Positions 46,614-58,939 of a stretch of DNA of 64,000 nt are shown here, in pieces; position 1 is the stretch's first letter; each line of letters begins with the position of its first letter. The notes below the pieces were generated by a model. It was not told the DNA's origin and made no database searches. It saw only the letters and a program-made list of their open reading frames with translations. A program made the position numbers and the translations under genes. This DNA comes from Deltaproteobacteria bacterium (GTDB lineage Bacteria > Desulfobacterota > Syntrophorhabdia > Syntrophorhabdales > Syntrophorhabdaceae): the NCBI GenBank assembly GCA_022711595.1, contig JAKLET010000009.1, forward strand, positions 1 to 64,000, written 5' to 3'.

Positions 46614-47350
46614 AAAAACCACACAAGACGATCACGATCACGAGCGGCAAGGGAGGAGTAGGTAAATCCTCGATAGTATCGAACATGGCATACCTTCTGG
46701 GCAACATGAACAAATCGACCTTTATCCTCGATGCCGACCTTTCGCTCGGAAACATCGACATCATGTTCGGCATGGTCTCGAAGTTCAACGTCAAGGACCT
46801 TATCGACGGTTCCCGGCAGATAGACGAGGTTATCATGGAGGGCCCCTGCGGCATAAAGATCATTCCTGCGACATCAGGCGTGAGCGAGTTCGCGAACCTG
46901 GACACCAACGAAAGGTCGATCCTTCTCACATCGCTGCGCACCCTTCCGGAGCATGACTTTCTGATAGTGGATACCTCCGCCGGGATATCGTCCAATGTGG
47001 TTTATTTCAACTCCATGAGCGAAGAGGTATTTGTGGTCATCACGCCGGACCCTGCGAGCATTACAGATTCCTACGCGGTGATAAAGGTCCTGAGCAAGAA
47101 AACGGGCAGAAAGGATTTTAATGTCATTGTAAACATGGTGAAAGACGAAAAGGAGGCGTTGGGGATATTCAAAAAGATCGTCAACGTCACCGACAGGTTC
47201 CTGGATGTCTATCTGTACTATTTCGGCTTTATTCCTCTTGACAAGAACATAAACATTGCCACGAGGAAACAGAGGCTGTGGGTCGAGTATTTTCCGGACT
47301 CTTCAGCGACGCGGGCCCTAACACAAATCTGCAACAGGTTGGTGACATAA
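46607..47350 (+). CDS. flhG: MinD/ParA-family flagellar number regulator FlhG
   Basis: This 247-residue protein has the deviant Walker A SGKGGVGKSSIVSN, DADLSLGNIDIMFG and a DFLIVDTSAG segment. The Walker motif begins at about residue 13, and the frame is closed by TAA eight codons upstream. The N-terminal DQAxxLR motif that normally stimulates FlhF is therefore absent. FlhG/FleN limits flagellar number and can inhibit the sigma-54 master regulator. fliA begins 2 nt after its stop. Confidence 0.92.
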   Translation: MLKKPHKTITITSGKGGVGKSSIVSNMAYLLGNMNKSTFILDADLSLGNIDIMFGMVSKFNVKDLIDGSRQIDEVIMEGPCGIKIIPATSGVSEFANLDTNERSILLTSLRTLPEHDFLIVDTSAGISSNVVYFNSMSEEVFVVITPDPASITDSYAVIKVLSKKTGRKDFNVIVNMVKDEKEALGIFKKIVNVTDRFLDVYLYYFGFIPLDKNINIATRKQRLWVEYFPDSSATRALTQICNRLVT

Positions 47351-47352
47351 TT

Positions 47353-48090
47353 ATGTGGAAAAAAGGTTACGCAAAAACTTACAAGGATGAACGTGAAAGA
47401 ACGATCGACGAGTTTATCCCCATAATCAAGCACCTTGCCTACAAGGTTTCCAGGCGTTACGAGGATGACGAGATCATTGAAGACCTCATGTCCGCCGGCA
47501 TAGTGGGGCTGCTCGAGGCGATGGAGAAGTTTGATGCCTCCAAGGGGGCCAAGCTGAACACCTTCGCCTACCTCAGGATACGCGGCGCCATGATCGATGA
47601 GCTGCGTTCCCGTGACTGGTTTCCGCGCAGCGCCAGGTCGAAATCGAAGAAGATCAACGAGGTGGTGAGAAAGCTCGAGAATAAGCTGGGCAGGCTTCCC
47701 AGCGAGGAAGAGGTTGCCGAAGCGCTGGGTATGGATCTCGACGAATATTTTACAATGCTCAAGAACTACGGGAACCTCTCCGTGCTGAGTATTGAAGACC
47801 TCCACGAACTTCTGGGTGAGGACCGCGACAGGATCATACGCTATGTGACGGAGGATACCGACGATCCGGAGAAATGCGCGGAGATCCTGGAGCTGGAAGG
47901 GCTCATGGCAAAGGAGTTCGACAAGCTGCCGGAGAGGCAGCGCTATGTGTTGAGCCTTTACTATCACGAAGACCTGAACATGAAGGAGATCGCCCGGGTC
48001 CTTTCCATCACGGAGGCGAGGGTGTGTCAGATACATTCGCAGGCCATTCTCAATCTCAGGGCCACAATGAAAAGATATCTCCATCATTAA
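47353..48090 (+). CDS. fliA: Flagellar sigma factor FliA (sigma-28)
   Basis: This 245-residue protein has region 2 (DLMSAGIVGLLEAMEKFD then LNTFAYLRIRGAMIDELRS), the RDWFPRSAR segment common to FliA/WhiG sigma factors, and region 4 (LPERQRYVLSLYYHED...EIARVLSITEARVCQIHSQA). ATG 47353 is chosen; the frame running back into flhG is not family sequence. It directs class III promoters, of which several are seen here, one overlapping its own stop codon. Its antagonist FlgM is encoded at 61872. Confidence 0.96.
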   Translation: MWKKGYAKTYKDERERTIDEFIPIIKHLAYKVSRRYEDDEIIEDLMSAGIVGLLEAMEKFDASKGAKLNTFAYLRIRGAMIDELRSRDWFPRSARSKSKKINEVVRKLENKLGRLPSEEEVAEALGMDLDEYFTMLKNYGNLSVLSIEDLHELLGEDRDRIIRYVTEDTDDPEKCAEILELEGLMAKEFDKLPERQRYVLSLYYHEDLNMKEIARVLSITEARVCQIHSQAILNLRATMKRYLHH

Positions 48091-48128: not shown

Positions 48129-49013
48129 ATGGAACGCGACGAGATCCTGAGCCGGCTCAGGAAAATAGATATACTGCCGACCTTCCCGGCCGTAGTCGGT
48201 GAAGTGATCAGTGTGATAGAGGACCCCATGAGCTCAGCGGCCGATCTTGCAAAAAATATGGACCCTTCGATAGCTTCCGAAGTTCTGCGCATTGCCAACA
48301 CGGCATATTTCGGTACGCGCAGCTTCCGCAAGATCACCTCCATCGAACACGCCATCGCCATAGTCGGCCTTGAGCAGATCTCGCAGATCATCCTCCATAT
48401 GCCGTTTTTGTCGATGATGCGGGGAGAGGATGACACGGACAAGGAAAGGTTCGTGAAGCATTCCATGATCTGCGGCATACTGTCAAAGGTGGTCAGCAGG
48501 ACCATTCATACAGGCGACGAACATGCTGTTTACATCGGCGGCCTGATGCATGATATCGGAATAATTGTCATATATCGTTATTTTCCCGACGAGTGGAAGA
48601 TGATAAAAAAGCTTGCCAGCGAGGAGGACATTGCGAGGACCAGCGCGGAAGAGGAGGTCCTTTCCTGCGATCACGGCATGATCGGGGCGTGCCTGCTTTC
48701 CATGTGGAATATCCCGCAGTCGATAACGGAAGCGGTCATGTATCATCACAGACCGCAGCTGGCCAAAGAATATGTTTGGAACACAAAAGTGGTCGATGTA
48801 GGAAATAGATTTGCAAAAAAGATCGATTTAAGCGATAATTTCGAAAGTTTCGATGAATTTATTAATAATAACAAAGAGTTTGTCGGCATGGTCGAGAGTG
48901 CCGGGGTTGAGGTTTCGCTTTCACAGGAACTTGATCTTTTTGAGGGCTCATACGGAATGCTGCGAAACGCGAAAGGATTGCTAGGGAGTGTTGGAGAAAA
49001 GACGAATGATTAA
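48129..49013 (+). CDS. HDOD domain protein
   Basis: This 294-residue protein has an HDOD domain with LPTFPAVVGEVISVIEDP, AKNMDPSIASEVLRIANTAYFG, GLMHDIGIIVIYRYFP and CDHGMIGACLLSMW. HDOD proteins are linked to signalling but most lack proven activity; here the internal MHDIG and CDHG motifs keep HD-like pairs. ATG 48129 is used although its ribosome binding site is weak; the frame open back to 47874 lies inside fliA. It is the first gene of the sigma-28 che operon and overlaps cheB. Confidence 0.88.
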   Translation: MERDEILSRLRKIDILPTFPAVVGEVISVIEDPMSSAADLAKNMDPSIASEVLRIANTAYFGTRSFRKITSIEHAIAIVGLEQISQIILHMPFLSMMRGEDDTDKERFVKHSMICGILSKVVSRTIHTGDEHAVYIGGLMHDIGIIVIYRYFPDEWKMIKKLASEEDIARTSAEEEVLSCDHGMIGACLLSMWNIPQSITEAVMYHHRPQLAKEYVWNTKVVDVGNRFAKKIDLSDNFESFDEFINNNKEFVGMVESAGVEVSLSQELDLFEGSYGMLRNAKGLLGSVGEKTND

Positions 49014-50034
49014 GGTACTGGTGGTTGACGATTCGCTGGTGATGCGAAAGACGATATCAAGGATGCTGTCGAGGGACAACGCCATCGAAGTCGTGGGAAC
49101 CGCAGTTGACGGAAGGGACGCGCTTGACAAGATCGAGCAACTCAAACCCGATGTGATCACCATGGACGTGGAAATGCCTGTCATGAACGGGATCGAGGCC
49201 CTCAAGGCCATCATGTCGAAAGACCCTATACCGGTCATTATCATGAGCGCCCTGACCCGCGAAGGTGCCGAGATCACGATGGAGGCACTGCAGCTCGGCG
49301 CCTGTGATTTTGTCACCAAGGACTTTACAAATGTCGGAGGGTCGCTGGCAGCCAAAGAAGCTGAAGTGGTCACCAAGATCAAGAACGTCGCAAAGAACAA
49401 GGTGCGGTTCCTCCTTCGGAAACTCGATATCAAAAAGCAGCCTGTCGGTATGGAGCCAGGTCAGAAGGTACGCCACGAGGTCCTTGCCATAGGCGCGTCA
49501 ACGGGCGGCCCGCCGGCCCTGCAGCACATCCTCATCAGTCTTCCAAAGGCCTTTCCTGTTCCCGTTGTGATATCGCAGCACATGCCGAAGATCTTTACCC
49601 AGTCTTTTTCCCAGCGGCTCAATGCGGTTTCACAGCTGAGCGTGAAGGAGGCGGAGGAGAATGAACCCCTCAAGGCCGGGTACGTCTACATTGCCCCCGG
49701 CAATACTCACATGGCGCTTAAAAAGAAAGGAAGGGAGGTCTGTGTGGAGTTTGTCGACGGCGCCCAGTATATCTACCGGCCGTCTGTTGATCTCCTCATG
49801 GCCACCACCGCTGAAGTGTATGAACAGAGGTCTATCGGGGTCATCCTGACGGGCATGGGCAACGACGGGCTTGCGGGGATGAAGGAGATGAAGGCAAAGA
49901 ACGGCTACATTATCGCCCAGGACGAGGAGACCTGCGTGGTCTACGGTATGCCCAGGGCGGTCGTGTCGGCCAACCTGGCAGACGCGGTATTACCGATCGA
50001 TAAAATTTCAGAAGAGATCATGAGGGTGCTATGA
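49006..50034 (+). CDS. cheB: Chemotaxis methylesterase CheB
   Basis: This 342-residue protein has a receiver domain (Asp54 in TMDVEMPVMNG) and a methylesterase domain with catalytic Ser in IGASTGGPPAL, His in ISQHMP and Asp in GMGNDG. It removes methyl groups from, and deamidates, chemoreceptors. ATG 49006 overlaps the HDOD stop and follows GGAG. The HEAT gene overlaps its end by 4 nt. Confidence 0.96.
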   Translation: MIKVLVVDDSLVMRKTISRMLSRDNAIEVVGTAVDGRDALDKIEQLKPDVITMDVEMPVMNGIEALKAIMSKDPIPVIIMSALTREGAEITMEALQLGACDFVTKDFTNVGGSLAAKEAEVVTKIKNVAKNKVRFLLRKLDIKKQPVGMEPGQKVRHEVLAIGASTGGPPALQHILISLPKAFPVPVVISQHMPKIFTQSFSQRLNAVSQLSVKEAEENEPLKAGYVYIAPGNTHMALKKKGREVCVEFVDGAQYIYRPSVDLLMATTAEVYEQRSIGVILTGMGNDGLAGMKEMKAKNGYIIAQDEETCVVYGMPRAVVSANLADAVLPIDKISEEIMRVL

Positions 50035-51878
50035 TGTCTAAGGTGAATGATCCAGTGGCTGAAAAGAAACTGAGCAGGAAAGAACTCGGGAAATACACCG
50101 CCCTTATAAAGAATGGAGATAATTTCGAGAAGGAAAAAGCGATCGATGCCCTTGTGGCTTTCGGCGGCAGGGAGGTCGTGGAAAGCATAATACCTATTCT
50201 CCAGGAAAAGAACACTCCTGCCAGGATGGCCGTACTTGATGTTCTCAAGAAGATCGGCAGCGATCATATCGACGGTATCATTGGAATGCTCAGCGACGAA
50301 AATGAGGACATCAGGGTATACGCCTGTGAAGTCCTTTCCTTTTTGAGCGACAAGCGCTCCGTTCCGCACATTGTGAAGAAGGTGTACGAAGATACTGATA
50401 ATGTGCGCAATGCGGCCTGTATGGCCCTCGGGGAGTTCGATGATGACGAGGCCGTGAACGCCCTGCTCGATGCCCTCAAGGACGAAGAGTGGATAGCATT
50501 CTCGGCCATTCTCAGCCTGGGGAGGACGAAGAGCCCAAAGGCGGTCCCAAAGCTTATTGAGTTTTTCAGGACAAGCGGAGAAGAGCTTTCAAGCGCAGCC
50601 TGTGAAGTCCTTATCGAATACGGTGACAACGCCGTCCTCGACGAGGTGTTCGATGTGCTAAAGGGATGGGACAGGCAGAAGAGGAGCATCTATCTCAAGA
50701 TCATCCTTGAAATAGGCAGCGAGGAGATCTTTGGCAGGCTTATGGAAAAGATCGGTGACGAGCTTTACGAACACCTCCTTTATACTGTGGGCAAAAGCAG
50801 GCAGCAATCGCTTGATGCCATCCGGATGTTGACGAATTTCAGGACGCGTGAAACCTGTGATGCCATCCTGGGGGTCCTGAAAGGGATGGAGCCCGATGAC
50901 GAGAGGTATGAGGAGGTGCTGGAGCTTTTCGCGTCCCTCAGCGATGTGTGGTCTAAAAATATTGCGGAATACATGTCCCTTGATGAGACGGGTCTTTTTC
51001 CCTTCATCAGGGCCTGTACGATGACGGGCGTCAGGATAAAGGAAACAATGCTTCTCGACCGGTTCCTGAGCGCCTCCGTCGATGTGAAACGGGAGATCAT
51101 CATGAACGCTCCGTCCATAGTCGACGGCACCGGTGCGATCATAATAAAGGAAGCCATCAGGGACACCGACGGCCATATCAAGGGTTTTGCTGTCGAGGCC
51201 GCTGGAAACCTGGGCCTTAAGGATCTCAGGGAAGACATCATGGACATACTGAAGAAGGATTTCCATGATGTAAGGGTCAAAGCGCTCAAGACGCTCATCC
51301 GTCTCGACCCCGGCACCGCAATGGTACTGGTTGAGAAATTCGTAGATAAAGGAACTGCGGACGACAAAAAGGTCTATCTTGCCTCAACGGGGCTCATAGA
51401 AGGCGGGAAGAACCTGCCCTTCATTGTAAAGCTGCTCAAGGATGAAGATGAGGGGGTGCGCAGGAGCACGATAGGTATCATAGGAAATTTCATGGACGAC
51501 GAACGGTACGTTGAACTCCTCCAGAAGATACTCATGGACGACGATATACCCCACGAAGTCCTCAAGGTAGTGAAAGACAAGAGGCTCAGCAGGTTCAAGG
51601 ACAGGCTTGTATCGATCTTCGAAGACAAGGCCAGGGAGATGTGGACAAGGTATTATGCGCTTTCAGCCCTTGGTTCATTCGAAGACCCCGGACTTTTCGA
51701 TATCTTTCAGAAGGGACTTGACGATGAGAACGGGCTTATTGTCATAGGGTGCATCCGCGCGCTGGCGGACTTGAACGACATGCGGGCAATGCAATTCATC
51801 CGGCCCTTTATGGATAATTCCAACGACGACATAAGATCGGCGGCCGAGATGGTGATCAGTAAAATGGAAAGCATTTAG
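50031..51878 (+). CDS. HEAT-repeat protein in the chemotaxis operon
   Basis: This 615-residue soluble protein is built almost wholly of HEAT-type helical pairs, for example VESIIPILQEKNTPARMAVL, DIRVYACEVLSFLSDKRSVP and VRNAACMALGEFDDDEAVNA. The repeats are clear in residues 40-200 and 385-610 and less regular between. There is no enzyme motif or membrane segment. HEAT arrays act as protein-binding scaffolds. It overlaps cheB and is followed after 9 nt by cheR, so it should be made with the adaptation enzymes and may hold CheB, CheR or the receptor array. Confidence 0.88.
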   Translation: MMSKVNDPVAEKKLSRKELGKYTALIKNGDNFEKEKAIDALVAFGGREVVESIIPILQEKNTPARMAVLDVLKKIGSDHIDGIIGMLSDENEDIRVYACEVLSFLSDKRSVPHIVKKVYEDTDNVRNAACMALGEFDDDEAVNALLDALKDEEWIAFSAILSLGRTKSPKAVPKLIEFFRTSGEELSSAACEVLIEYGDNAVLDEVFDVLKGWDRQKRSIYLKIILEIGSEEIFGRLMEKIGDELYEHLLYTVGKSRQQSLDAIRMLTNFRTRETCDAILGVLKGMEPDDERYEEVLELFASLSDVWSKNIAEYMSLDETGLFPFIRACTMTGVRIKETMLLDRFLSASVDVKREIIMNAPSIVDGTGAIIIKEAIRDTDGHIKGFAVEAAGNLGLKDLREDIMDILKKDFHDVRVKALKTLIRLDPGTAMVLVEKFVDKGTADDKKVYLASTGLIEGGKNLPFIVKLLKDEDEGVRRSTIGIIGNFMDDERYVELLQKILMDDDIPHEVLKVVKDKRLSRFKDRLVSIFEDKAREMWTRYYALSALGSFEDPGLFDIFQKGLDDENGLIVIGCIRALADLNDMRAMQFIRPFMDNSNDDIRSAAEMVISKMESI

Positions 51879-51887
51879 GGTATTGTC

Positions 51888-52712
51888 ATGACCAAAGAAG
51901 AATTTACCGTCCTGAGAGATTTCATCTATGAGAAAACGGGTATATACTTCGCAGAAACAAAGACCTATCTGCTTGAAAGCAGGCTGACCAACAGACTGAA
52001 CGAACTCGGCCTGAGCTCTTTCGAGGATTACTATTACCATCTCAAGTATGGAGCCGACAAGGCAAAGAATGAACTGGCCAACCTTTTCGACGTGGTAACG
52101 ACCAACGAAACAAGCTTTTTCAGAAATCCTCCCCAGCTCGACGCATTCAAGATATTGCTGCAGAAGGCATATCTGAACGGCAACAGTTCGGTGCCCCCCA
52201 TACGGATATGGAGCGCCGCATGCTCGACCGGTGAGGAGCCTTATACCCTTGCGATCATGATCATGGAGATGATGGAGGCCGGCAGGGTCAATATCCCTTT
52301 CACCATAGTTGCCACCGATATCAGCACCAAGGTCCTCGAATCGGCGCGCAAGGGTGTCTTCAGCCAGTACAGCGTGCGCAATACCGATGAGATCATAAAG
52401 AAAAAGTATTTTACAGAAGAGAGCAATGTGTATAAGCTAAAGGATACCGTAAAAAAGAACGTAAAGATCGATTTCATGAATCTCATGGACGATAATGCAT
52501 ATAAACTGTACCGGCAGATGGATTTTATCTTCTGCAGGAATGTACTCATCTACTTTGACGAGAAGATGAAAAAGAAGGTAGTCGACCATCTTTACGAATG
52601 CCTCAAACCCAAGGGTTTCCTTACGATCGGCCACGCTGAATCGCTCCACAATATTTCACGAGCCTTCAAACCCCTGGTATTTCCGGGCACTATCGCATAT
52701 CAAAAAGGGTGA
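51888..52712 (+). CDS. cheR: Chemoreceptor methyltransferase CheR
   Basis: This 274-residue protein has an N-terminal helical domain and a SAM-binding domain with TTNETSFFRNP, WSAACSTGEEPYTLA, TDISTKVLESAR and FIFCRNVLIYF. It methylates receptor glutamates. No pentapeptide-binding beta-subdomain insertion stands out by eye. cheY follows after 3 nt. Confidence 0.96.
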   Translation: MTKEEFTVLRDFIYEKTGIYFAETKTYLLESRLTNRLNELGLSSFEDYYYHLKYGADKAKNELANLFDVVTTNETSFFRNPPQLDAFKILLQKAYLNGNSSVPPIRIWSAACSTGEEPYTLAIMIMEMMEAGRVNIPFTIVATDISTKVLESARKGVFSQYSVRNTDEIIKKKYFTEESNVYKLKDTVKKNVKIDFMNLMDDNAYKLYRQMDFIFCRNVLIYFDEKMKKKVVDHLYECLKPKGFLTIGHAESLHNISRAFKPLVFPGTIAYQKG

Positions 52713-52715
52713 GCA

Positions 52716-53099
52716 ATGAAGACCATACTTATCGTAGATGACTCCGCAACGATCAGAAAACTGCTTGCATATATCCTGAAAAGGAAGAATTATGTGATCG
52801 CCGAGGCGGAAGACGGGATCGATGCCATGGAAAAACTGGGTCACGTTCAGGTCGATCTCGTGATCGTGGACCTCAACATGCCCAATATGGACGGCATCGA
52901 GTTTGTAAGGAACCTGAGGGACAATTATTATTACATGGACACGCCCGTGATCATGCTGACGACCACGAAAGACGACAAGCTGAAGAAAGATGCCTTTGAC
53001 GCCGGTGTCAACATGTTCCTTAATAAACCGGTTCAACCGAATTTTTTGCTGTACAAAGTAGAGAGCCTTATACAGGACGAGGAGGAAATCAATGGATGA
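52716..53099 (+). CDS. cheY: Chemotaxis response regulator CheY
   Basis: This is a 127-residue single receiver domain with DDS (8-10), phospho-acceptor Asp52 in VDLNMPNMDG, LTTTK and the conserved Lys near residue 107 (FLNKPVQ). It should bind the EIDALL motif of FliM. The length and solitary domain fit CheY; with cheA overlapping by 8 nt, it is the direct output partner. Confidence 0.93.
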   Translation: MKTILIVDDSATIRKLLAYILKRKNYVIAEAEDGIDAMEKLGHVQVDLVIVDLNMPNMDGIEFVRNLRDNYYYMDTPVIMLTTTKDDKLKKDAFDAGVNMFLNKPVQPNFLLYKVESLIQDEEEING

Positions 53100-54936
53100 T
53101 CAGGCCCTTCAAAGAGACGAGATGCAGGAGATCATCGATGAGTTCATAGTAGAATCAAGTGAGCTCATGGACAATGTCATTCAGGACATTGTTGTCATCG
53201 AACAGAGCCACGATGAAGAGGTGGTGAACAGCATTTTCCGGGCCGTTCATACCATAAAGGGGACTTCGAGCTTTTTGGGGTTCAACACTCTTTCACAGCT
53301 TGCTCACAAGGGCGAAGACGTCCTCGGTCAGATCCGCAAGGGCGAGATGTCGACGAGCCAGGAGGTGGCGGACATCCTTCTTGAGTCTTTTGACCTGATG
53401 AAACTCATGATAGAGGACATCCGTGAACACGGGAGCGAGCAGCAGGACGCCTCTGTTGTCATCGGTAAACTGATGGGTCTTCTTGACCCCTCACAGAAGC
53501 CCGCCCCGCAGCCTGAGGAAAAGAAAAAGATCGGGGAGATCCTCATTGAAGAGAACATTATCACAAAGAGCGAGCTCGACGAGGTCCTCAAGAAACAGGA
53601 AACGGAGAAGGACAAAAAGGTTGGCGAGATCATCCTTGAAGAGAAATATATCACCGAAACCCAGCTCAACAAGATCCTGGTTAAGCAGAAGACCCCGAAA
53701 ATGGAGGAGCAGAGCATCAGGATCGACGTCAAGAAGCTCGACGATCTCATGAATCTCGTAGGGGAGCTTGTCCTCGGAAAGAACAGGCTCATTCTGGTCA
53801 ACAGCATGGCAAGGAAAGGCGATGACAGCGAGAATGTCTTCGATAACCTCGCCGATATAACGAACTACATCGAGGTGATCACCAACGAGCTTCAGTTGTC
53901 CGTCATGAGGGCCCGCCTTGTGCCTGTGAGCAAGGTTTTCAACAAGATACCGAGAATGGTGAGAGACCTCTGTTCGGAATTCAAGAAGGACATAGAGCTC
54001 AAGGTGGAAGGCGAGGAAACGGAGCTTGACAGGTCGCTCATCGAGGCACTCCATGATCCTCTCATACATATAATAAGAAATTCCGTCGATCACGGCGTGG
54101 AACTTCCCGCCGACCGCACTGCCAAAGGAAAACCGCCAAAGGGGCTTCTTTCGATCAGGGCATACAACGAAGGGAACCACGTTATCATCGAGATATACGA
54201 TGACGGCAAGGGTATCAACATCCAGGCCGTCAAGGACAAGGTCAAGGAAAAAGGGCTGATGACAGAGGCGGAACTGGCGAGCCTTTCACAGAAAGAGGCC
54301 ATGAACCTTGTTTTCATCCCCGGCCTTTCCACGGCGCAGAAACTCAGCAGCGTTTCCGGCCGCGGTGTCGGGATGGACGTGGTAAAGACAAACATTGAAA
54401 AGATGAACGGACAGGCCTACATTGATTCCGAGGAAGGTAAGTGGACAAAGCTCACCATCAAGCTCCCGCTGACCCTTGCGATCATGAGGGCGCTCATAGT
54501 GAAGGTGCGGGAAGAGCTCTTTGCCATTCCCCTCAATACCGTTACCGAGCTTGTCAAGCTTCGCGAAGGTCTCATCAAGACCGTCGACAAGAATGAGGTC
54601 CTTGTGCTGCGCAACACGGTCATTCCCATCGTCGACCTCAGAAAGGCCTTTCTTTTCAAGGGAGAAGAGGACAACAGCGGTTATATCGTGATATGCAATA
54701 TCGGTGACAAGATAATAGGCATCAAGGTGCATTCGGTCATAGGCCAGGAAGAGGTGGTCATCAAACCTCTCGGCGAGTTCCTGAAGGACATCAAGGGGAT
54801 CAGCGGGGCCACCATCAGGGGCGACGGCAAGGTGATCCTTATCCTCGATATCCCTTCGGTGATCATAAACTACGCGAATAATAAAAAACTTCATTTGCAG
54901 GCCCAGCCCCAGATGCAGGCGGGAGCAATGAACTAA
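53092..54936 (+). CDS. cheA: Chemotaxis histidine kinase CheA with MshEN-like insert
   Basis: This 614-residue protein has P1 (phospho-accepting His53 in AVHTIKGTSSFLG), then an unusual region at 146-199, then P3 (IRIDVKKLDDLMNLVGELVL), P4 (HIIRNSVDHGVE, DDGKGIN, SGRGVGMDVV) and P5 (MRALIVKVREELFAIPL). The 146-199 region holds two copies of a 24-residue pattern, K-[IV]-G-E-I-x7-I-T-x3-L-x3-L-x2-Q, in place of a CheY-binding P2 domain. This pattern is that of MshEN/T2SSE_N domains. CheA starts the phosphorelay to CheY and CheB. cheW is not in this operon but 1.5 kb away. Confidence 0.95.
   Translation: MDDQALQRDEMQEIIDEFIVESSELMDNVIQDIVVIEQSHDEEVVNSIFRAVHTIKGTSSFLGFNTLSQLAHKGEDVLGQIRKGEMSTSQEVADILLESFDLMKLMIEDIREHGSEQQDASVVIGKLMGLLDPSQKPAPQPEEKKKIGEILIEENIITKSELDEVLKKQETEKDKKVGEIILEEKYITETQLNKILVKQKTPKMEEQSIRIDVKKLDDLMNLVGELVLGKNRLILVNSMARKGDDSENVFDNLADITNYIEVITNELQLSVMRARLVPVSKVFNKIPRMVRDLCSEFKKDIELKVEGEETELDRSLIEALHDPLIHIIRNSVDHGVELPADRTAKGKPPKGLLSIRAYNEGNHVIIEIYDDGKGINIQAVKDKVKEKGLMTEAELASLSQKEAMNLVFIPGLSTAQKLSSVSGRGVGMDVVKTNIEKMNGQAYIDSEEGKWTKLTIKLPLTLAIMRALIVKVREELFAIPLNTVTELVKLREGLIKTVDKNEVLVLRNTVIPIVDLRKAFLFKGEEDNSGYIVICNIGDKIIGIKVHSVIGQEEVVIKPLGEFLKDIKGISGATIRGDGKVILILDIPSVIINYANNKKLHLQAQPQMQAGAMN
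53527..53688 (+). other. Two MshEN-like 24-residue motifs within cheA
   Basis: Residues 146-169 and 176-199 each fit x-[ILV]-G-x2-[ILV]2-x3-[ILVY]-[ILV]-x4-L-x3-L-x2-Q, with a 6-residue spacer. MshEN domains bind c-di-GMP with two such motifs and a 5-residue spacer. Here Arg1 is Lys and Gly10 is Asn or Lys. Confidence 0.6.
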
Positions 54937-55028: not shown

Positions 55029-56303
55029 TCACTGGCTGTTCATCGTTTCGTACTCGATAATTGCATTATTTTCGATGAGGTAAAGATCATCTGCGGAGAT
55101 GTTGATCTTTTTAAGGAGATCGTTCATCTCATCAGAGCGTTCCCCTTCAAGATTTTCAATGATGGAAACAAGATTTCCCAGGAGTCCGTCCCGATGAAGG
55201 AGCGCCTCCTGTATCTCTTCGGAGAGGTTGAAATCCTTCAGGATATTATCGAGCGGCACCTGGAAGAGGGCGTCGATGAGTGAAAGGACGCCTGTGATGA
55301 ATGCCTTGTCGGCTGCCCCCGTTTCGTTGGCGATGCGCTTCATGAGGAGTTCCATGATCCTGCCGCGTATGACGGCCCTCTCGAAAAGGGGCGCCGATCT
55401 GGTGTCGTACCCTTCGCCGGCAAAGAGAAGGAGGGTGACCCACTTCTGGAGGTTCCGGTATCCGAGCAGGGTGATCGATTGCCCGATGGAGGTTATCTTC
55501 TGAGGTGTGTAAAAGGACGCCGAGTTCATGAACTGCAGCAGCTTGATGTTCAGCTCAGGATTCTGCCTGAAGAGGCCTTCAATAACAAAGAACTCCTCCT
55601 CACGCGCCAGGAGCCTTGAGAGCTCAAGGAGAACGATCTGCGCGGGTGAAATTGACTTTCCGGAAATGAGAGCCGGTTTCGCAAAAAAGTACCCCTGGAA
55701 ATAGTCGAAGCCGAGATCAAAACAGGTCTGGAAATCTTCCTGGGTTTCCACCTTTTCCGCAAGCAGCTTAAGATTGTGCCTCTTCAGCTTCTTCACGAGA
55801 TCGGGCAATGCCTCCATGTCGGTGCCCATGAGGTCGACCTTCACATAGGAGGCTATATTAAGCATGTTCTCGATAGAACTGTCATAGGCAACGAGATCAT
55901 CAAGGGCGAAGTGATAACCGATGCCGCGTGTTTTTTTACACAGATCGACCACGCTGTCATCGATCCTGACGGTTTCCAGCAGTTCCAGAATTATCGATCT
56001 GTTCGGTAAAAGTTCTATTATGCCGCTTTCGAGCACCTTATCATCCACGTTGATAAAGCCCATCTTATCGCCGATCAGTCTGTTTATGCCGATATTATTG
56101 AGGGCGTTGACCATGACGCTGGCCGTCGCCCGTACGTTGTCGGTCACGTTGGCACCGTTCGTGCTGCCGCTGCGAAAGAGCAGTTCGTAGCCGAAGATCT
56201 TTTTGAGCCTGTTGAGGATAGGCTGTCTGCCTATGTGGACCTGCCTTTGCTCTTCGGAGACGCTCTGTTGGCCTGTTTTTCCATTACCAGTTGTTATTGT
56301 CAT
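55029..56303 (-). CDS. Degenerate EAL plus HDOD protein (YuxH/CdgJ-like)
   Basis: This 424-residue protein has an EAL-type domain (about 22-225) and an HDOD domain (about 225-400). The EAL part reads HIGRQPILNR, GYELLFRSG (ELL for EAL), FALDDLVAYDSS (where active enzymes have DDFGTG), VKVDLMG, AEKVET and FQGYFFAKP. It is therefore probably not an active c-di-GMP phosphodiesterase. Such proteins (YuxH, CdgJ) influence motility in several bacteria. It is transcribed from a sigma-28-like promoter divergent from that of cheW, which ties it to the flagellar regulon. Confidence 0.9.
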   Translation of the reverse strand: MTITTGNGKTGQQSVSEEQRQVHIGRQPILNRLKKIFGYELLFRSGSTNGANVTDNVRATASVMVNALNNIGINRLIGDKMGFINVDDKVLESGIIELLPNRSIILELLETVRIDDSVVDLCKKTRGIGYHFALDDLVAYDSSIENMLNIASYVKVDLMGTDMEALPDLVKKLKRHNLKLLAEKVETQEDFQTCFDLGFDYFQGYFFAKPALISGKSISPAQIVLLELSRLLAREEEFFVIEGLFRQNPELNIKLLQFMNSASFYTPQKITSIGQSITLLGYRNLQKWVTLLLFAGEGYDTRSAPLFERAVIRGRIMELLMKRIANETGAADKAFITGVLSLIDALFQVPLDNILKDFNLSEEIQEALLHRDGLLGNLVSIIENLEGERSDEMNDLLKKINISADDLYLIENNAIIEYETMNSQ

Positions 56304-56429: not shown

Positions 56430-56897
56430 ATGAACGATGGAGCCATTCTGCAGCTTGTTACGTTTAAACTTGGAACTGAGGAATTCGGTGTGGATATCCT
56501 GAAGGTTCAGGAGATCAACAAGATGATGAACATCACGAAGATCCCCAATGCGCCGGCCTTTATTGAGGGTGTCATAAATCTCAGGGGAAAGATCATCCCG
56601 ATAGTCGATCTCAGGAAACGCCTTGGTTTCAAGGAGCAGCCTTATGATAAATCCACCCGGATAATCGTTGTGGAGCTGGAAGGCCTGGTGCTCGGTTTTA
56701 TTGTTGATTCCGTGTCAGAGGTATTGAGAATCCCGGAGAACACGATAGAACCGCCGCCGTCCATGGTAGCGGGCATAGAATCTGAATACATAGAAGGTGT
56801 GGGCAAGCTCGATGACAGGCTACTTATTCTCCTTGAACTTAAAAAGGTGTTTTCGTCTCCCGAGAGAAAGGACATTGAGAGCATCGAACTGAACTAA
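56430..56897 (+). CDS. cheW: Chemotaxis coupling protein CheW
   Basis: This 155-residue protein has the CheW fold with LVTFKLGTEEFGVDILKVQEI, FIEGVINLRGKIIPIVDLRKRL and IVDSVSEVLRIPENTIEPPP. It links chemoreceptors to CheA P5. AGAGGAGGATG precedes the ATG. It stands apart from the cheA operon with its own sigma-28-like promoter. No chemoreceptor gene is in the window. Confidence 0.96.
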   Translation: MNDGAILQLVTFKLGTEEFGVDILKVQEINKMMNITKIPNAPAFIEGVINLRGKIIPIVDLRKRLGFKEQPYDKSTRIIVVELEGLVLGFIVDSVSEVLRIPENTIEPPPSMVAGIESEYIEGVGKLDDRLLILLELKKVFSSPERKDIESIELN

Positions 56898-57412: not shown

Positions 57413-58141
57413 ATGAGCTTTTATCTGACAGTCGCCGGAAAATACATCAACGAAAAAAGACTGGACATGATCTCGAACAACGTGGCAAACGCCCTGACCG
57501 CGGGCTTCAAGGCCTCTCGACCGGTGTTCAGTGTCACCACGACTGCCGAAGACCAGACGGGGCGCCAGACCCAGTTAAAGAATGCCTATGTCAACCTTTC
57601 CGACACCTATATCGATTTTTCTGACGCATCAATCGTCGAAAGCGGAGCAACCCTGGACATGGCCATCCTTGGCAATGGTTTTTTCGTTGTCTCAACCGAT
57701 GAAGGCATGAAGTACACCCGAAACGGGCAATTCATGCTCGACAAAAGCGGACGCCTGGTGACCATGAGCGGTGAACCGGTCATGGGCAAGGGCGGAGAGA
57801 TCACGATCAATGTTTCGGACGGCAAGGAGATCATGATCGAGAACGACGGCTCCATCTTTCTTGGAAAGGACCTCGTTGACACGGTCAAGGTGGTCGAGTT
57901 CAAGAACATGAAGAACATGAAGCCCACCGGGAAGGGATACTTTACGAACTCAGGCAACGAGGCCGAGGAAACGCCAAAGGTGTACACCATCCGCCAGGGC
58001 TCTTTCGAAACCTCGAATGTGAATATTGTCCAGGAGATGGTGGAGTTGATCCATACCATGCGGGCTTATGAATGCTACACAAAAATCGACCAGATGCTTT
58101 CTGATGTCAACGGCAAGCTCGTTGAACTGACGAAATTTTAG
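57413..58141 (+). CDS. flgF: Flagellar rod protein FlgF
   Basis: This 242-residue protein opens with YLTVAGKYINEKRLDMISNN then VANALTAGFKAS, the rod-family N-terminus, and ends with SNVNIVQEMVELIHTMRAYE. The start cannot be moved downstream without losing the rod signature, and there is no ribosome binding site, so translation must begin almost at the mRNA 5' end. It forms part of the distal-proximal rod junction. flgG follows after 9 nt. Confidence 0.93.
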   Translation: MSFYLTVAGKYINEKRLDMISNNVANALTAGFKASRPVFSVTTTAEDQTGRQTQLKNAYVNLSDTYIDFSDASIVESGATLDMAILGNGFFVVSTDEGMKYTRNGQFMLDKSGRLVTMSGEPVMGKGGEITINVSDGKEIMIENDGSIFLGKDLVDTVKVVEFKNMKNMKPTGKGYFTNSGNEAEETPKVYTIRQGSFETSNVNIVQEMVELIHTMRAYECYTKIDQMLSDVNGKLVELTKF

Positions 58142-58150
58142 GAGGAACCC

Positions 58151-58939
58151 ATGATCAGGGCTTTGTGGACTGCCGGAACAGGCATGAACGTACAGCAGAT
58201 GAACCTCGACGTCATTGCCCACAACATCGCCAATGTCAATACCAACGGTTTTAAAAAGAGCAGGGCCGATTTTCAGGACCTCATGTACCAGACCTTAAGG
58301 CTCCAGGGCGCGAGAACGGAAGGAGGCGCCATGGTCCCGACGGGCATTCAGATCGGTCTCGGCGCGATGCTGTCCTCGGTGCAGAAGGTCTTTCAGCAGG
58401 GCGACTACCAGAGGACCGATAATGAACTTGATGTTGCCATAGAAGGGAATGGTTTTTTCCAGGTCAACCTGCCTTCGGGAGAAAAGGCCTATACAAGGGC
58501 CGGTGCGCTGAAGACGGACGCAGAGGGCAAGATAGTGACATCTGATGGCTATACCATTGAACCGAGCCTTACCATACCTGCCAGAACAACCAGTATTTCC
58601 ATAGAGAATGATGGCAGTGTATCGGTGCAGATCCAGGGACAGACCGCACCGCAGTCTCTGGGACGCCTCGAACTGGCGACCTTTATCAACCCCACGGGGC
58701 TCAGGGCCATAGGCAAGAACCTTTTTATGGAAACCGATGCGAGCGGTACGCCCACAACGGGAAATCCGGGACAGAACGGTATAGGCACCGTTCTGCAGGG
58801 TTTTCTCGAGATGTCCAACGTCAATGTCATGCAGGAGATGATCAATATGATCATCGGGCAGCGTGCCTATGAGGTCAATTCAAAGGCGATCCAGGCAGCC
58901 GACGAGATGCTCCAGATGTCCAACAACCTGAGGAGATAA
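58151..58939 (+). CDS. flgG: Flagellar distal rod protein FlgG
   Basis: This 262-residue protein has the FlgG N-terminus (LWTAGTGMNVQQMNLDVIAH then NIANVNTNGFKKSR) and the C-terminal helix LEMSNVNVMQEMINMIIGQR. Length matches the E. coli protein (260). TAGGAGGAACCC precedes the ATG. It makes the distal rod that crosses the periplasm. Confidence 0.97.
   Translation: MIRALWTAGTGMNVQQMNLDVIAHNIANVNTNGFKKSRADFQDLMYQTLRLQGARTEGGAMVPTGIQIGLGAMLSSVQKVFQQGDYQRTDNELDVAIEGNGFFQVNLPSGEKAYTRAGALKTDAEGKIVTSDGYTIEPSLTIPARTTSISIENDGSVSVQIQGQTAPQSLGRLELATFINPTGLRAIGKNLFMETDASGTPTTGNPGQNGIGTVLQGFLEMSNVNVMQEMINMIIGQRAYEVNSKAIQAADEMLQMSNNLRR

Follow-up and report, generated by a model that had tools for sequence, protein, structure and literature searches.

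The CheA kinase encoded in the window (the whole 64,000-nucleotide stretch of DNA analysed here, from a Syntrophorhabdaceae genome) contains a genuine MshEN module of 54 residues (146-199), which is made up of two 24-residue half-sites and lies between the P1 and P3 domains. The best reading of this protein is a c-di-GMP-reading CheA. On balance, we infer that the module binds c-di-GMP and adjusts the kinase output of flagellar chemotaxis. Taken separately, ligand binding is quite likely, and an effect on kinase activity has about an even chance of being real.

CheA is a 614 aa protein (53092..54936, forward strand, as are all genes below unless stated) with the order P1-MshEN-P3-P4-P5. Its core domains were all retrieved above the Pfam cut-off and in CheA order: P1 (Hpt; PF01627, 57.3 bits, residues 13-112, 53128..53427), the P3 dimerisation domain (PF02895, 58.2 bits, residues 206-273, 53707..53910), the P4 kinase domain (PF02518, residues 322-461, 54055..54474) and the CheW-like P5 domain (PF01584, residues 467-591, 54490..54864). 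Both the phospho-acceptor histidine, within the P1 sequence HTIKG, and the kinase domain are present. No P2 domain was found in this protein by the Pfam scan. The gene belongs to a cluster headed by a sigma factor gene of flagellar type (47278..48090; Pfam Sigma70 r2/r3/r4), which is FliA-like by context. It is accompanied by cheB (48988..50034, PF01339), cheR (51888..52712, PF01739), cheY (52716..53099, PF00072), cheW (56430..56897, PF01584) and two flagellar rod genes resembling flgF and flgG (57413..58939, Pfam). Since these genes adjoin it, we assign cheA to a flagellar locus, with its product as the chemotaxis kinase there. The cheY stop codon overlaps the cheA start, and the two genes are therefore likely to be translationally coupled. 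A 615 aa HEAT-repeat protein, unusual in a chemotaxis operon, is encoded between cheB and cheR (50031-51878, +). Between cheA and cheW, the opposite strand encodes an EAL-HDOD protein (55029-56303, -), which is probably no phosphodiesterase because its EAL match is limited to the second half of the profile.

MshEN motif I (KIGEILIEENIITKSELDEVLKKQ) occupies residues 146-169 (53527..53598) and motif II (KVGEIILEEKYITETQLNKILVKQ) residues 176-199 (53617..53688), as given by the NF053729 match and by motif parsing. They are separated by the six-residue spacer ETEKDK (residues 170-175, 53599..53616), which is five residues long in MshE. The sequence-only reading that first pointed to a tandem MshEN motif had located it exactly, with residue 146 starting at 53527 and residue 199 ending at 53688, and its placement between P1 and P3 agrees with the Pfam boundaries. 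The NCBIfam profile NF053729 ('c-di-GMP_motif, MshE-related') aligned with residues 146-199 over profile positions 1-53 of 53, with a score of 43.5 bits (curated cut-off 38; E 2e-11) on the whole protein and 50.1 bits on the module fragment alone. All 36 CheA modules tested (36/36) matched it. The Pfam profile PF05157, which had been proposed for the search, gave no match in the window CheA at E<=1, although solved MshE-type domains align by sequence; the identification relies on the NCBIfam model and on the fold comparison instead. When the window CheA was compared with solved chains by phmmer, PilB (E 1.5e-5) and MshE (5HTL, E 3.1e-5) were retrieved with alignments spanning the module region, and a profile built from the 36 CheA modules reached PilF (4e-32), PilB and MshE. 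The second half-site also has a near-threshold match to the Pfam family FumaraseC_C, the fumarase C C-terminal domain (53602-53682, residues 171-197). We rejected this family as the identity of the module, as the match scored 32.0 bits against a cut-off of 32.5 and covered one half-site only. The same match is common to 12/22 related CheAs and may reflect either a remote likeness of two helical hairpins or convergence.

The structure prediction that had been suggested points the same way. An AlphaFold2 model of residues 138-207, computed with 36 relatives, contains four helices (model positions 10-16, 22-34, 40-46 and 52-63) with a mean pLDDT of 82. Its top solved structure in Foldseek was MshE with c-di-GMP (5HTL; probability 1.00, rmsd 1.1 A over 57 columns), with a weak E of 0.34 that is probably due to the shortness of the domain. 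The c-di-GMP-bound GSPII-B domain of PilF came next. A VIA comparison of the fragment model with 5HTL gave a Z of 10.5 over 60 residues, in a range (below about 13) that helical bundles can also reach. In the full-length model, the module forms a domain apart, flanked by the low-confidence linkers 135-144 and 201-211. The window CheA is thus predicted to contain the four-helix MshEN_N fold. The tandem motif of the sequence-only reading is borne out by both the NF053729 score and the superposition on 5HTL.

According to Wang et al. (PMC5013675), the ligand contacts of MshE are made by positions 1, 2, 3, 17, 21 and 24 of each half-site. In motifs I and II, respectively, the window CheA has K and K at position 1, I and V at position 2, G and G at position 3, L and L at position 17, L and L at position 21, and Q and Q at position 24. 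Of the contacts scored (positions 1, 2, 17, 21 and 24 in both motifs), 10/10 are acceptable residues, where R, K or L is allowed at position 1, an aliphatic residue at 2, 17 and 21, and Gln at 24; Gly3 is also present in both. Among the features that had raised the suspicion that binding might be changed or lost were Lys in place of Arg1 and the six-residue spacer, and these two doubts have largely been removed. Lys is found at position 1 of motif I in the Thermus PilF GSPII-B domain, which binds with a KD of 6 nM, and the MshEN consensus has been widened to R/K/L at this position, with tighter binding (PMC11731258). Among 117 parsable CheA modules, position 1 is occupied by Lys more often than by any other residue, and spacers of six residues outnumber those of any other length (46/117).

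The turn glycine at position 10 is replaced in the window CheA by Asn (motif I) and Lys (motif II). K, N or E are mostly found at this position in the clade of the window CheA, whereas Gly is present in motif I of 82/95 other CheAs; the relaxed survey pattern given by Wang et al. has [GAS] here (PMC5013675). Alignments also place Asn at position 10 of motif I in the solved PilB chains 5tsg and 5zfr. Given these chains, and as Gly is absent at this position from half of the second motifs in CheAs, the glycine does not define membership of the family. Position 10 lies in the turn between helices and makes no ligand contact, as described in the same source (PMC5013675), so the effect of the changes is expected to be modest. 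Asn/Lys at position 10 is a real peculiarity of the clade to which the window CheA belongs.

In each of the 22 CheAs of this clade, both motifs carry Gly3, Leu21 and Gln24 without exception. For Gly3 this is partly by construction, as the motif table was anchored on that residue (22/22 MshEN-CheAs of the clade passed the anchor). Positions 17, 21 and 24 vary less than others (p 0.011 within the clade and 5e-4 among the remaining CheAs), in a test that omits positions 1-3 and 6-7 and whose few positions and related sequences make the p-values indicative only. Outside the clade, 91/95 MshEN-CheAs retain Gln24 in motif II. Conservation of a polar residue at the end of a helix would be hard to explain without a ligand.

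Nine GGDEF domains above the cut-off (>130 bits in six cases) are encoded in the genome from which the window comes, alongside six PilZ domains; MshEN modules occur in seven of its proteins. With c-di-GMP signalling in place on this count, the ligand is probably made in the organism. One of its other MshEN proteins is a 375-aa frame with three consecutive modules (L002; G000 C14:57984-58544). Most likely, one c-di-GMP molecule would bridge both half-sites of the CheA module and close them, which would make the connection between P1 and P3 stiffer or shift it. MshEN would act here as a domain of its own, tethered by flexible linkers to P1 on one side and P3 on the other. Once occupied, and lying only a few residues before the P3 dimerisation helices, it would alter the access of P1 to P4 or the setting of P3 and P4. 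Either change would tune phosphotransfer to the coupled CheY, and flagellar switching would then follow the cellular level of c-di-GMP.

Two substitutions count against binding: Ile/Val instead of Leu at position 2, and Asn/Lys instead of Gly10, which is strongly conserved in MshEN at large. Wang et al. report that mutating conserved hydrophobic residues of MshE lowered its affinity more than 10-fold, and that the MshEN domain of Xcc XpsE has lost its affinity by natural drift (PMC5013675). The module could instead have kept the MshEN fold but lost c-di-GMP binding, and serve between P1 and P3 as a spacer or as a platform on which CheY, CheB, a polar landmark or a pilus or flagellar protein docks. 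We regard this as unlikely, although it is the most probable of the alternatives. It fits the replaced position-10 glycines of the clade, and conservation of the module throughout the clade would be equally compatible with a structural or docking role. Degenerate CheA modules without the usual second half-site pattern occur elsewhere (for example L180, L183, L185 and L186), degenerate MshEN domains without binding are known (XpsE), and the PilB N-domain family also contacts proteins, as in the PilB-PilZ structures 7lkm/7lko. However, a fold released from ligand binding has to be reconciled with the full set of scored contacts and both Gly3 residues in the window CheA, and with the invariance of Leu21 and Gln24 in all 22 members of its clade. 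These four modules, together with L190, L196 and L204, have second half-sites off the usual pattern and spacing and are candidate natural non-binders. Some Desulfobacterota make cGAMP via modified GGDEF enzymes, and the module might bind a related dinucleotide of this kind, such as 3',3'-cGAMP, instead of c-di-GMP. We consider this improbable: VcMshEN does bind cGAMP, but weakly, with an affinity of 330 uM as opposed to 0.5 uM for c-di-GMP (PMC5013675), and the motif of the window CheA has no sign of altered specificity. Finally, a chance or low-complexity resemblance of a charged helical linker, suggested by the shortness of the segment, by its abundance of E, K, I and L residues and by the often unstructured P1-P3 linkers of P2-less CheAs, is for practical purposes refuted by the E-value and 36/36 relatives obtained with NF053729, by MshE and PilF topping the predicted-fold matches, by the conserved contacts and by the recurrence of a P3-adjacent module in several phyla.

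Compared with known MshEN domains, the c-di-GMP-reading CheA proposed here shares with MshEN_N of Vibrio cholerae MshE (5HTL) the two 24-residue half-sites, the four helices and the G3/L17/L21/Q24 pattern. It differs in having Lys rather than Arg at position 1, Ile/Val rather than Leu at position 2, Asn/Lys rather than Gly at position 10 and a spacer of six rather than five residues, and in lacking the MshEN_C subdomain and the ATPase. The Thermus thermophilus PilF GSPII-B domain (8PDK) resembles the window module in its fold and in starting motif I with Lys, but it is a domain of a pilus ATPase and has its own C-terminal subdomain. A comparable input of the second messenger c-di-GMP into the chemotaxis array is provided by Azorhizobium Cbp1 (PMC6454048) and MapZ-CheR. 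There, a PilZ domain is carried by a chemoreceptor or a separate adaptor, whereas the window module is inside the kinase.

The module had been described as standing in place of P2. It does occupy the P1-P3 linker, and Pfam retrieved no P2, but the description is too strong, as about 52% of CheAs lack P2 in a 2023 survey of CheA architectures, where the linker of such proteins is described as unstructured (PMC10782961). The window CheA shares the P1-P3-P4-P5 core with P2-less CheAs of the Helicobacter and Campylobacter types (PMC10782961). In those proteins the P1-P3 linker is described as unstructured and some have a C-terminal receiver, whereas the linker of the window CheA holds a predicted folded module. 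A general role of MshEN as a substitute for P2 is contradicted by a second CheA of the same genome (L041; 712-aa frame, G000 C39:14311-15651 and upstream), which has an extra segment of ~85 residues between P1 and MshEN. This protein sits in a distant CheA clade, with Syntrophorhabdus sp. PtaB.Bin184 (L101) as its closest named relative, and its MshEN module lies before P3 with a spacer of one residue. Its relatives likewise carry a segment of ~85 residues ahead of MshEN. No Pfam or PDB sequence match was found for the extra segment of L041, so that it is P2-like by position only and we did not accept it as a P2.

The survey of CheA homologues that had been called for revealed a wide distribution. 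Among the best 150 matches of an MshEN-P3 profile in 395 genomes of the phylum, at least 149 spanned both parts, in at least 129 genomes; as they come from the best 150 matches and the profile itself contains MshEN, these counts are lower bounds and give no prevalence. Six more named phyla yielded MshEN-CheAs as well: Nitrospirota, Acidobacteriota, Actinomycetota (Actinoplanes), Gemmatimonadota, Planctomycetota and records filed under Myxococcota. In these named genomes, the module lies directly before P3, mostly within about 20 residues. On a maximum-likelihood tree of P3-P5 (64 rows), module presence switches state eight times (bootstrap range 7-9), with at least five switches forced by well-supported branches, compared with 21 when labels were shuffled. 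The module has therefore been repeatedly gained and/or lost. Within the order, the CheA orthologues of the window's family have the module, whereas the sampled orthologues of two other families do not, which indicates that chemotaxis as such does not require it. We compared the linkers of these MshEN-less sister CheAs (L029-L034) with shuffled sequences. Shuffles were as good in 15/500 cases for L030 and 40/500 for L029, and the rest plainly had no resemblance to MshEN. The P1-P3 linkers of L029 and L030 weakly hint at a decayed module.

The fusion of MshEN with CheA is not new. The main text of Wang et al. 2016 places MshEN with CheA and CheX in one clause (PMC5013675); these fusions include the same domain combination as in the window CheA and are only listed there. 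The 2023 survey of CheA architectures mentions neither MshEN nor c-di-GMP in its text (PMC10782961), and a search of the open-licence literature brought up no study on the function of an MshEN-CheA. The architecture is thus known but uncharacterised, and the window CheA is a well-supported further case. The present analysis adds a check of the binding site against the later PilF data, shows how broadly the family is spread and that the module has been repeatedly gained or lost, and reports another copy within the genome as well as the silence of the CheA architecture survey on MshEN. We tentatively suggest that MshEN-CheAs may form a widespread, overlooked class in independent lineages, in which the kinase itself, rather than an adaptor or receptor, reads c-di-GMP through MshEN beside P3. 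The survey of homologues made here supplies a conserved 54-residue target, its contact residues and natural controls in the sister families without the module; Actinoplanes and Geomonas species are cultivable candidates with an MshEN-CheA. If the proposal is true, the coupling would be testable in vitro with one purified kinase, and the array kinase itself would integrate second-messenger state with chemosensory input. With CheA as a c-di-GMP receptor, the two main systems that govern whether a cell swims or settles would meet in one protein.
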